Below are positions 529-21,156 of a DNA stretch of 50,720 bases, one piece after another. The DNA comes from Myxococcales bacterium SG8_38. GTDB lineage: Bacteria > Myxococcota_A > Polyangia > Polyangiales > Houyiibacteriaceae. Made by a program: the position numbers and the translations under genes. A model generated the notes under the pieces. It had not been told where the DNA came from, did no database searches, and worked only from the letters and a program-made list of their open reading frames with translations. Where the stretch lies: positions 1 to 50,720 of the forward strand of contig LJTN01000036.1 in assembly GCA_001303415.1 (NCBI GenBank), read 5' to 3'. Every line of letters begins with the position of its first letter. Positions within the stretch are counted from its first letter, which is position 1.

Positions 529-892
529 TCCCCGGAGGACGGGTCGCGACGGGCGTAAGGACCGGGCTCGGAAAAACGCGACACGAGGTTCCACGGAACG
601 GGGCGGCTTGCATAGGTGCCCCGATGCACTTGTGGGCTTGGGGCACGCAAGCCGCCCCTCGGGCGGCGTGCCAATCGGAGGTGGTTGCTGTCTTGCCGAT
701 TGGCACTTCGCACGTCCGTTCCACCTCATGTCGCGTTTTTCCGAGCCCTCCATACGTCGACGTGTACGGAGGAGGACGGGTCGGGATGGGCAGCACAGCG
801 AGGGGGCGGGAGCCTAGTCGTTTGATGACTTGGGGAGTCGGGCGAGCGGGTCCCGCTCGCGAGCACGGCCGTCGCGACCCGTCCTCCGGGGA
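529..892. repeat. Foldback (nested palindromic) repeat element, copy A
   Basis: Fills most of the gap between convergent ribA and the SDR gene. Outer 27-nt inverted arms lie at 529-555 and 866-892 (one mismatch). Inner 25-nt arms lie at 565-589 and 723-747 (one mismatch). Between them are a 12-bp perfect stem (600-611/647-658) with a nested 7-bp stem (616-622/640-646) and an 11-bp perfect stem (668-678/696-706). A further 7-bp hairpin is at 843-849/853-859. The arm motif GGAGGACGGGTCG (534-546) recurs internally at 771-783. Two blocks, about 529-628 and 720-801, match copy B at 19946-20239 with few differences; the hairpin-rich centre, about 75 nt longer than in copy B, is present only here. 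It encodes no convincing protein. It could be a MITE-like element, a structured RNA or a bidirectional terminator. Confidence 0.85.
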
Positions 893-19500: not shown

Positions 19501-19845
19501 ATCGACTACGTGTTCCGCGTGCTCGGGGTGGAGTACCTGAAGCAATACGACTTCGCGCAGGTGCCGCCCAAGGAGGAGCAAGAAGAGCTCCAAAATCCAA
19601 CCGACGTCGCGGCCGCTCACCGGCTGGAGGCGGCGCCGCCAACCGACGCGGCCCCTGCCATCGAGCCGGCCGAGCAGGTCACCTTCGGCTTCGACGAAGG
19701 CGCCCAGCATCCGAGCGCGCTCGACCAGCAGCTCGGCGAGATGATGGGTGACGCCCCGATGTGCGACAAATGCGGTCACATCACGGTGCGCAACGGCGCT
19801 TGCTACAAGTGCCTGAACTGCGGCAACTCGATGGGTTGCTCCTAG
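16570..19845 (+). CDS. nrdJ: Vitamin B12-dependent (class II) ribonucleotide reductase
   Basis: About 1,091 residues; reduces ribonucleotides to deoxyribonucleotides using adenosylcobalamin, oxygen-independently, in the cytoplasm. The active-site triad is seen as N394/C396/E398 (NPCSE), with redox Cys in PQCSACF, the ten-stranded barrel signature APTGTIGLLMDCDTTGIEP, and a C-terminal zinc-ribbon/thiol tail (CDKCGH...CYKCLNCGNSMGCS). A Lys/Glu-rich linker (near 19080-19170) precedes the C-terminal domain. Start is uncertain: the ATG at 16570 is used here, but the ATG at 16639 has a better-spaced AGGCGG. An ATG at 16342 would include poorly coding leader. Preceded by two NrdR-like boxes and followed by foldback repeat copy B. 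Confidence 0.95.
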   Translation: MTSNLEIEGTRRAEVSQQAGGLAMERRLTKPAEEPLETVDYVLRDSQITNSDGSIVFELKGAQVPEGWSQLATDIAVSKYFRKAGIEGEKNKGERSVRQLVYRIAHSIREAGEKFGGYFADEATADTFEAELSHLLVYQKAAFNSPVWFNCGLYQRYGIEGSGGNYAWDPEQDVIFKTDNAYEHPQCSACFIQAVNDDLMAIYDLVKNEARLFKYGSGTGTNFSKIRGKQEKLSGGGTSSGLMSFLEVLDRAAGATKSGGTTRRAAKMVCLDLDHPEIVDFVEWKEREEKKARALIEAGYESDFNGEAYHTVSGQNSNNSVRVTEDFMKAVEADGEWRTTFRTTGEVCDTYRARDLWRKIAESAWSCADPGVQYDTTINDWHTCPNTDRINASNPCSEYMFLDDSACNLASINLSKFLDEDGRFDIEGYRQAIRVLIIAMDIIVDYASYPTRSIAKNSHNYRPLGLGYANLGTLLMQLGIPYDSDEGRTICAALTAILCGHAYATSSEIAASKGPFAGFQRNRQPMLRVMGKHREAAYRINEPDGPGMTEDRPTACPAELIQAAQEDWDLACKLGEMYGYRNAQATVLAPTGTIGLLMDCDTTGIEPDFALVKFKKLAGGGYFKIVNQSVPKALQRLGYTEAQIADIVSYVTGTNTFTGAPHCGRKALLEHGLTEREIEKAEAALRGVFDVGFALAPWVIGTEAYERLGIKPEVYNKPGFHLLRFWGHSDAEIGEINDVVIGRMTVEGAPHLRAEHLPVFDCANRCGKIGKRFLKPMSHIHMMAAAQPFLSGAISKTVNLPKDSTVEDVEEIYKEGWRLGLKAIALYRDGSKSSQPLSTKDDSKSEEKEETRARAKTEPKAPVKEALVKEGLTPPTTRRHRLPKKRKGFTQEARIGGHKVFLRTGEYEDGSLGEIFVDMHKEGAAFRSLMNCFAISVSMGLQHGVPLDAYVRQFTFTRFEPQGIVEGHPNIKFATSIIDYVFRVLGVEYLKQYDFAQVPPKEEQEELQNPTDVAAAHRLEAAPPTDAAPAIEPAEQVTFGFDEGAQHPSALDQQLGEMMGDAPMCDKCGHITVRNGACYKCLNCGNSMGCS

Positions 19846-19945
19846 GCGCTCGCGTGGGGGCGGCGGGGTGGGGATGATGGGCCCACAACGCAGCGTCCAC
19901 ATTTCGCCAACGGTTCGGCAAAGCGCCAACGTGTCGTCGACCAAG

Positions 19946-20239
19946 TCCCCGGAGGACGGGTCGCGACGGGCGTAAGGACCGGGCTCCGAAAAACGCGACA
20001 CGAGGTTCCACGGAACGCGGCGGCTTGCATAGGTGTCCGTATGCACTTGTGAGCTTGGTCCGCTCCACCTCATGTCGCGTTTTTCCGAGCCCTCCATACG
20101 TCGACTTGTACGAAGGAGGACGGGTCGGGATGGGCAGCACAGCGAACGGGCCGTCGCCTAGTTGTAGGTGGACTTGAGGGGGCGGGGGCGACGGGGCGCC
20201 CGAGCGCGAGCACGCCCGTCGCGACCCGTCCTCCGGGGA
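19946..20239. repeat. Foldback (nested palindromic) repeat element, copy B
   Basis: Lies between nrdJ and dapF, both on the plus strand. Outer arms 19946-19972 and 20213-20239 are a perfect 27-bp inverted repeat. Inner 25-nt arms 19982-20006 and 20067-20091 have two mismatches. Blocks 19946-20045 and 20064-20145 are nearly identical to copy A (529-892), but the central hairpin array of copy A is missing and the segment 20146-20212 differs. The differing centres around conserved arms suggest the arms and their pairing are what is maintained. Flanks (19846-19945 and 20240-20290) show nothing I can identify. Confidence 0.85.
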
Positions 20240-20328: not shown

Positions 20329-21156
20329 GTGCTTCTTCCCTTCTACAAGTACGAGGGTCTAGGGAACGACTTCCTGCTCATCGAGACGGACGCGCTCGGT
20401 GGCTTACAGCTCAGCACCGATCAAGCCATTACGCTCTGTGACCGGCACCGCGGCGTGGGTGGCGACGGGGTGCTCCTGCTCGAGGTCGCTGTGCCTTCGA
20501 TGGGCGTCATCAACTCGGATGGCTCGGTGCCGGAGATGTGCGGCAACGGGATTCGATGTGCGGCTCTGCATCTGGCGAGGCGCGCCGGTGAGTCGGCGCT
20601 GGAGGTGACCATCGATACCGTGGCCGGCCCTCACTCCTGCCTGGTCGTGAATCGGCCTGGTGCGGAGTCGGTGGCGGTGCACATGGCGCCCCCCTCACTC
20701 GTGCCCTCCGATCTTCCATTGCATGCCGACGCGCCGTGGCTCGACCATCCCCTCGCAGTGAACGACCGCACGGTTCATCTGACCGGAGTGTCTTTTGGCA
20801 ATCCTCACGCGGTTACGTTCGACCCCGTCGGCGACCAACGGTTCCAGATCGGCCCGGCCATCCAAAGTGACCCCCACTTCCCCGAAGGCGTCAACGTAGG
20901 CTTCGTCTCGGAGCATGACGGATCCAGCATGCGACTCGACGTGCTCGAGCGCGGCGCGGGATGGACGCTGGCGTGCGGGACCGGGGCTTGCGCCGCCGCC
21001 GTGGCAGCCGTGGAGACCGGACGGGCCAAGCGCGAGCAACAACTCAGCATTCGGCTTCCCGGCGGCACGCTGATGGTGACCGTCGGCGCGCCCGGCGACA
21101 CCGTCCTCATGCAGGGTCCCGCGCGTTTCGTTTTTCGCGGCGAGGTCGAGCTCTAA
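20329..21156 (+). CDS. dapF: Diaminopimelate epimerase
   Basis: 275 residues; interconverts LL- and meso-diaminopimelate for lysine and peptidoglycan synthesis, without cofactor. The two catalytic cysteines are C71 (EMCGNGIRC) and C216 (LACGTGACAA), and the substrate-binding segments NSDGS, GNPHAV and GVNVGFV are present. Length is normal for the family. The start is a GTG at 20329, giving MLLPFYKYEGLGNDF, which matches the usual N-terminus. The next gene begins 38 nt downstream on the same strand but is functionally unrelated. Confidence 0.96.
   Translation: MLLPFYKYEGLGNDFLLIETDALGGLQLSTDQAITLCDRHRGVGGDGVLLLEVAVPSMGVINSDGSVPEMCGNGIRCAALHLARRAGESALEVTIDTVAGPHSCLVVNRPGAESVAVHMAPPSLVPSDLPLHADAPWLDHPLAVNDRTVHLTGVSFGNPHAVTFDPVGDQRFQIGPAIQSDPHFPEGVNVGFVSEHDGSSMRLDVLERGAGWTLACGTGACAAAVAAVETGRAKREQQLSIRLPGGTLMVTVGAPGDTVLMQGPARFVFRGEVEL

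Follow-up and report, generated by a model that had tools for sequence, protein, structure and literature searches.

Gene ends and foldbacks of the window

The window, i.e., the whole analysed stretch of 50,720 nucleotides from Myxococcales bacterium SG8_38 (genome G000), contains two copies of a large nested foldback, each located between two genes. Copy A has a GTP cyclohydrolase II gene (stop at position 511) before it and, facing it from the opposite strand, an epimerase-family gene (934–2046). Copy B lies between an ORF with a TSCPD domain that ends at 19845, presumably encoding a vitamin B12-dependent ribonucleotide reductase, and a diaminopimelate epimerase gene (20329–21156). The parts of both copies, scored with covariance models built from 15 5′ modules (R1) and 12 3′ modules (R2), are as follows:

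529–556, plus strand: left outer arm of copy A (28 nt), pairing with 865–892 at 96% complementarity
563–748, predicted folded strand minus: copy A, 5′ module (three-way foldback), R1 match of 224 bits
564–597/715–748, ~600–658 and ~660–714: closing stem and hairpins H2 and H3 of the copy A 5′ module, from fold and covariation
771–887, predicted folded strand plus: copy A, 3′ module (long hairpin), R2 match of 128.5 bits
865–892, plus strand: copy A, right outer arm, inverted repeat of either 529–556 or 771–791, both possible partners
19844–19884, minus strand: arm of a second foldback, X (95% match to its positions 117–157), placed after the upstream stop codon and before copy B
19946–19973, plus strand: left outer arm of copy B (28 nt), pairing with 20212–20239 at 100% complementarity
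19980–20092, plus strand: copy B, shortened 5′ module, R1 match of 68.6 bits over 113 nt
20115–20234, plus strand: copy B, 3′ module, R2 match of 107.1 bits
20212–20239, plus strand: copy B, right outer arm, inverted repeat

The left outer arm of copy A is nearly repeated at 771–791, within the 3′ module, as the 5′ arm of its hairpin, which leaves the right outer arm with two possible partners. The folding energy of copy A is 13.1 standard deviations below that of dinucleotide shuffles and that of copy B 8.4 standard deviations below, and none of 100 and none of 200 shuffles, respectively, folded as well. Considering these energies and the genome-wide recurrence of the family (see below), the foldbacks of copies A and B are not due to chance.

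Modular anatomy and composites

The element consists of two separable modules, a three-way foldback of 186 nt (5′ module) and a hairpin of 117 nt (3′ module), usually in that order: in 20 of the 22 loci with both modules, the 3′ module is located 22–198 nt downstream in the same orientation. The 5′ module is composed of a closing stem of ~20 pairs, H2, the word CTCGG, and H3 with a CCAATC/GATTG stem, and the 3′ module of GGAGGACGGGTCGGGATGGGC ... GCCCGTCGCGACCCGTCCTCC surrounding CAGCACAGCGA. The two modules also occur apart in G000, and modules lacking the outer arms are present as well; the overall size of the element is 290–530 nt or more.

Nineteen 5′ modules of G000 were located by their inner arms alone. 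Both hairpins are found in 15 of them (185–192 nt), repeat X takes the place of the inner hairpins in three (L066, L071, and L084), and one, copy B, is short (113 nt). As both hairpins are usual in this genome and only copy B is short, this copy is a deletion derivative; compared with the 15 modules of regular length, it has lost H3 and half of H2. A preliminary description of the window had placed two nested foldbacks at 529–892 and 19946–20239, where both are indeed present, and had correctly noted that they encode no credible protein, as the only frames overlap in several directions and none is long and credible. Its measures need revision. The outer arms are 28 nt long in both copies, not 27 nt, and the inverted inner arms, given as 25 nt, exist with lengths of 34 nt in copy A (88%; 564–597/715–748) and 26 nt in copy B (92%; 19981–20006/20067–20092). 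The near-identical sequence common to the copies, put at about 180 nt, is more extensive, with 113 nt at 95% and 129 nt at 88% identity. Of the perfect 11- and 12-bp hairpins that were regarded as an extra of copy A, one is a perfect 12-bp stem (600–611/647–658), whereas the other has arms of 19 nt matching at 84% (660–678/696–714), and, far from being extra, both belong to the usual form of the 5′ module. The proposed variable core is therefore a loss in copy B as far as the difference between A and B is concerned, but replacement of the core is real in other copies.

Foldback X is 157 nt long (L071:440–596) and also occurs in L236–L254. G000 has whole copies of it, whereas G013, G016, and G018 have for the most part one arm only, and arms of the 5′ module border X also in L245 and in G013 (L237). 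By eye, L238 (G018) and L239 (G016) show, at ~1450–1700, a partial tRNA-Leu-like copy with an X arm immediately behind it and, further on, a complete copy, an arrangement that looks as if insertion had been accompanied by duplication of the 5′ part of the tRNA gene.

In G002, the 5′ module is part of a different composite, in which a palindrome precedes it on the left and mini-hairpins form an array to the right (20 copies). These mini-hairpins (L127–L146) have the loops GAA, GCA, or GTA (GCCCGAAGGGC, GGCGCGAAGCGCC), and their stems vary in concert from copy to copy. Loops of the GNA kind have high stability in single-stranded DNA (ssDNA), and those of the d(GCGAAGC) type are likewise very stable. 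An ORF-like start behind the 5′ module of G002, ATGAACGACTC, was rejected owing to single-base indels and altered start codons among the copies. Runs of GCTGNC-type short repeats (CTGTCGCTGACGCTG...) are found beside or inside elements of several genomes (L064, L066, L068, L070, L072, L069, L283, and others).

Copy number and host range

With copy B as DNA query, 135 matching pieces were obtained from the 3.62-Mb, 105-contig assembly of G000, and 36 of the 37 stretches fetched from it contain at least one arm. We estimate that 30 to 38 copies are whole, a number that is uncertain because many of these stretches are contig ends. R1 has matches in 18 of the 19 genomes of the genus, with a maximum of 56 in a single genome; since the R1 palindromes match the reverse strand too, there are fewer places than matches. 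Among the 14 genomes that belong to the same taxonomic family but not to the genus, one has matches (G020, five R1 matches), and an order-wide survey of 183 genomes with stricter filters retrieved the same 19 genomes, i.e., one of 164 outside the genus. Weak matches of the DNA query, one each, occur in G032, G051, and G069 (E 3e-5 to 1.5e-4). Named records that carry the pattern are the metagenome-assembled genomes Myxococcales bacterium Ww259 and Ww639.

Phage or plasmid cargo was rejected as an explanation, as collections of both gave no blastn match, and the viral contigs of IMG/VR contain no exact match of one element pattern. Rfam has no entry over the element, neither for the window at the gathering score nor for both copies at E ≤ 1, in agreement with the preliminary description, which had recognized no named family. 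No description of this foldback family is apparent in the available portions of the literature searched, including PMC3116915, PMC3733652, PMC8266576, and PMC2229807. The element represents a real family of large extragenic foldbacks that is new to Rfam and to the literature searched.

Genomic place and turnover

Among 34 copies for which a simple ORF finder called both neighbors, 25 are situated between convergent, seven between co-directional, and two between divergent genes, given as raw counts; a coarser pass over contigs of G002 (n = 23) yielded nine, 11, and three, respectively. The upstream gene is directed at the element in 49 of 61 called cases, and 44 of these 49 genes end 4–100 nt before the 5′ module. 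Many extragenic copies that mostly do not lie between divergent genes are also what characterizes repetitive extragenic palindromes (REPs).

The sites of both copies differ among relatives. At the site of copy A, none of the 14 relatives whose DNA was compared has an R1 or R2 match, and the next gene is unlike that of G000. Excisions, insertions, or clean empty sites were not seen. Of the 15 informative relatives at the site of copy B, 12 carry, as judged by eye, another foldback, Y (~124 nt), and one a fragment. Other matches at or near this site are an inverted one of R1 in G002, further downstream, and those of R2 within the gap in G009 and ~1 kb away in G013. The contents of this site differ by species, and one gene end can thus carry foldbacks of different families. 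Foldback Y begins within the stop codon of the TSCPD-domain gene (TGACGGGG...CCCCGTCAG; first ~130 nt of L273–L288) and comprises two sequence types with two-sided changes in the stems. In the nine of 12 sites that fit the pattern used for fold analysis, the minus strand of Y is the stabler one by predicted energy (9/9), and the skew of events is not clear.

Conservation of the fold

For the 5′ module, 65 forward R1 matches of at least 100 bits from 14 genomes were aligned with MAFFT (mean identity 77%). The underlying R1 scan covered loci already known to contain matches, and L158, L159, a second match in each of L074 and L077, and copy B were omitted as they score below 100 bits. The 3′ module set consists of 32 of the 38 forward R2 matches of at least 60 bits, leaving out L067 and L147 (insertions), one match each of L081 and L085 (truncated by contig ends), L086, and L131.

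In the 5′ module alignment, 97.6% of the cells pair, and 32 of the 53 pairs have changed on both sides, a number reached by none of 500 shuffles. Two-sided cells amount to 358 compared with 93 in the shuffles. The shuffle counts are inflated by the relatedness of the copies, whereas a control that slides the partner by 1–3 columns retains this relatedness and lets pairing fall to 35–47%. Direct double changes from one Watson-Crick pair to another are frequent (89) versus few intermediates, and an A.C mismatch persists at columns 19/189 in 37 of the 65 modules. In G020, the outer stems have a different sequence, and H2, H3, and the words TTGCAGATGCGG and GTGCCAACCGG are kept in most of the five copies. 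A covarying fold, as expected of a structured RNA, is hence present, but covariation by itself does not prove an RNA gene.

The probable folded strand

Which strand of a repeat folds can be asked by comparing, strand by strand, the changes toward G.U with those toward A.C. We counted such changes by parsimony on a tree. In RNase P, a known RNA that served as control (13 genomes of the genus), the sense strand shows 21 changes to G.U and five to A.C. The 5′ module has six changes to G.U and 25 to A.C, which means that wobble is tolerated on the minus strand, and the 3′ module has 15 and one, respectively, in favor of the plus strand; the difference between the modules is significant (p = 1e-6). 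Unpaired columns are skewed like the paired ones, with G>A exceeding C>U in the 5′ module and C>U exceeding G>A in the 3′ module, and mutation may therefore account for some of the strand signal. With this skew built in, one-sided p-values are 0.0016 for the 5′ and 0.018 for the 3′ module, and 0.003 for the 5′ module without its most variable pair. The strand signal therefore holds for the 5′ module, with the 3′ module giving a weaker one.

Predicted energies favor the same strands, minus in 62 of 65 5′ modules and plus in 32 of 32 3′ modules, and for RNase P the sense strand is favored in all 13 sequences; as the copies are related, the p-values of the energies are not independent tests. When DNA parameters and a shuffle control were used, the effect persisted in both modules and disappeared in RNase P. 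G.U pairs are scarce in the 5′ module alignment, with nine (plus) or 40 (minus) of 3,416 cells. The corresponding figure for the RNase P of this genus, a less diverged molecule (92% vs. 77% identity), is 187 of 1,407, and neither strand of the whole element has an ordinary G.U level. Reading this scarcity as a lack of strand preference was overturned by the event count. Together, the data point to one folded strand per module, minus for the 5′ and plus for the 3′ module. Such opposite strands weaken the case for the whole element as one folded molecule, and, along with the scarce wobble, two separate ssDNA hairpins within one composite would fit better than a single RNA.

A short word at the base of the stem shows the same polarity. 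Within a fixed 10-nt window, to which the same rule was applied on both strands (68 of 72 5′ and 36 of 37 3′ modules counted), TAG occurs on the minus strand of 23 of 68 5′ modules (10 of 17 genomes) versus the plus strand of two, and on the plus strand of 14 of 36 3′ modules (nine of 13 genomes) versus the minus strand of none; genomes are the fairer count here, because copies within a genome are related. The longer word GTAG is found on the predicted folded strand of eight of 68 5′ modules compared with one on the other strand, and of seven of 36 3′ modules compared with none. It is present in all five copies of G020, and by eye six of seven 3′ modules of G016 and G018 have GTAG and one CTAG. 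Copies A and B lack the tag, which in G000 is confined to one of 13 5′ and three of 12 3′ modules, and none of 20 copies in G002 has it.

The modules might instead be transcribed into structured RNA, whether within 3′ untranslated regions or in the form of small RNAs, and act on mRNA ends or as regulators, with their spread being secondary. Strong covariation, a strand-specific tolerance of wobble, conserved words in the loops, and the position shortly after co-oriented genes all agree with this idea, and for published REPs a similar location and GT pairing are taken as signs of transcription in the parts of the literature available to us. However, the two modules favor opposite strands, and a single transcript cannot serve both; furthermore, G.U pairs are much scarcer than in the less diverged RNase P, and Rfam offers no match. 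We therefore regard a role as structured RNA as unlikely.

Search for a partner enzyme

Genes for Y1 transposases (PF01797) exceed the family cut-off in 12 of the 19 genomes of the genus. Since R1 and R2 have no match near any of their 20 places (~1.5 kb per side, less at contig ends), the Y1 transposase was rejected as a linked partner and is a candidate partner in trans, no more. No Y1 was found in G016 and G018, although both are rated 100% complete and contain copies, nor in G009 and G001, which have many copies (rated 80% complete); G008 possesses Y1 and no copy. The Y1 genes of G000 and G002 occupy the same genomic place, between genes that we take to be mglA and leuS. By eye, the Y1 gene of G000 (L226:1462–2112) is bracketed by GGGGACAC inverted repeats, the whole spanning ~1355–2180, and those of L226 and L333 (G017) have a perfect inverted repeat on both sides, AGGGG(G)ACACTCTCCACCCC. 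A second, longer Y1 type with frames of 318–345 amino acids (L320, L321, and L323 in G013, G007, and G015) has its own inverted repeats, AACCTTCCCACGTT or ACCTTCCCAGGTTC. In the fetched stretches, in which Y1 was the family searched, the arms do not enclose any visible transposase gene; nor was a parent transposon with the same ends seen, in an assembly of 105 contigs with many copies at contig ends.

The outer inverted repeats of 28 to ~40 nt, the lack of a credible protein, and the many copies at species-specific sites would suit a classical miniature inverted-repeat transposable element (MITE), whose terminal inverted repeats are moved in trans by a DDE transposase and whose inner fold is incidental. 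Against such an element speak the strong constraint on the inner fold, ends that vary from copy to copy, the existence of modules without outer arms, the missing transposase gene between the arms of the fetched stretches, where Y1 was the family searched, and the lack of a visible target duplication at the ends examined, few copies having both ends intact. A MITE in this strict sense is thus quite improbable.

Proposed mode of spread

The preliminary description had left the choice between a MITE-like element and a structured RNA family, and had named further copies and compensatory changes in the arms as support for a real family. Both were found, the copies across G000 and the genus and the changes in many of the pairs, but the opposite folded strands, the strand of the tag in relatives, and the lack of a visible target duplication argue for a REP/REPIN-like element rather than a plain MITE or a single RNA. 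On a narrow balance of probabilities, we favor a non-coding, multi-copy, mobile extragenic element that resembles REPs and REPINs and is recognized as a folded single strand. We infer that the folded molecule is ssDNA and that it is moved by a protein acting in trans; the mechanism proposed here rests on the strand and tag signals. A module would fold when its strand becomes single, e.g., as lagging-strand template. A protein could then recognize the shape, the mismatches, the loops, and a short word (GTAG/NTAG in the relatives, worn in G000) at the base of the stem, and might move the element to other extragenic places without target duplication. Badly folding copies would not be spread, leaving the paired changes behind, and the two recognized hairpins would face opposite ways, similar to the two REPs of a REPIN.

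That the fold is under no selection, and the arms are kept alike by quasi-palindrome correction at replication or by conversion between copies, would account for the direct double changes, for three arms that are alike within and different between species, and for gene ends that hold different foldbacks in different species, but is very unlikely in view of persistent mismatches that correction would remove, such as the A.C at columns 19/189, of a strand asymmetry and tag strand that differ between the modules, and of G020, which retains the three-way shape with other outer stems.

A further, rather doubtful possibility is a new class of single-strand mobile hairpin, in which a three-way junction swaps the sequence of its outer stem while keeping its shape, each module has a reading strand of its own and a GTAG-type word, and the element spreads without a neighboring transposase and hosts other foldbacks in its loops. 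If this were true, the gene ends of the genus would turn over between several such foldback families.

Comparison with known systems

Integron attC sites may be compared in kind, as they too are recognized by shape over sequence on one strand of folded ssDNA according to the available parts of the literature, but the present element is dispersed and has no cassette gene. With bacterial MITEs that contain transcribed foldbacks (Correia/NEMIS, ERIC, RUP, and Bcr1), it shares the non-coding nature, inverted ends, and long stem-loops. As far as the sources at hand describe them, however, these elements measure ~100–200 or 70–300 bp and mostly have target duplications, as opposed to 290–530 nt or more and none seen here. 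TIRtrons (TIRYT) contain a Y1 gene flanked by long inverted repeats with GGGGWSAS in the published excerpts available, and thereby resemble the Y1 genes of the genus, that of G000 being flanked by GGGGACAC repeats; the repeats at these genes are unlike the present element in sequence.

The closest likeness is to the REP/BIME/REPIN systems and their TnpA_REP (RAYT) transposases. The accessible parts of the literature describe REPs as palindromes of 20–40 bp (PMC3733652) that are located at gene ends, bear GTAG (or CGTC) at one hairpin end as a hallmark, form inverted doublets, and are bound as ssDNA by TnpA_REP in a strand-specific manner. Judged by these sources, the element agrees with them in being extragenic and multi-copy, in its location at gene 3′ ends and between convergent genes, in hairpins with compensatory changes that are strand-specific and, taken as a pair, of opposite polarity, and in the stem-base word, which is of the GTAG type in several relatives of G000. 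It differs in that this tag is mostly worn in G000, and in that a REPIN consists of two like hairpins in inverted orientation, whereas the modules here differ in sequence and have opposite predicted folded strands. Moreover, its modules measure 186 and 117 nt and include a three-way junction, in contrast to the 20–40 bp described for REPs, and no Y1 gene is flanked by copies (0/20). How REPs spread is still unsettled in the literature available to us, and a family with a large kept shape in 18 species of one genus offers natural covariation data on what a hairpin-recognizing protein must see. Although it departs from the REP/REPIN family in two defining features, the element most likely works like a REP or REPIN.
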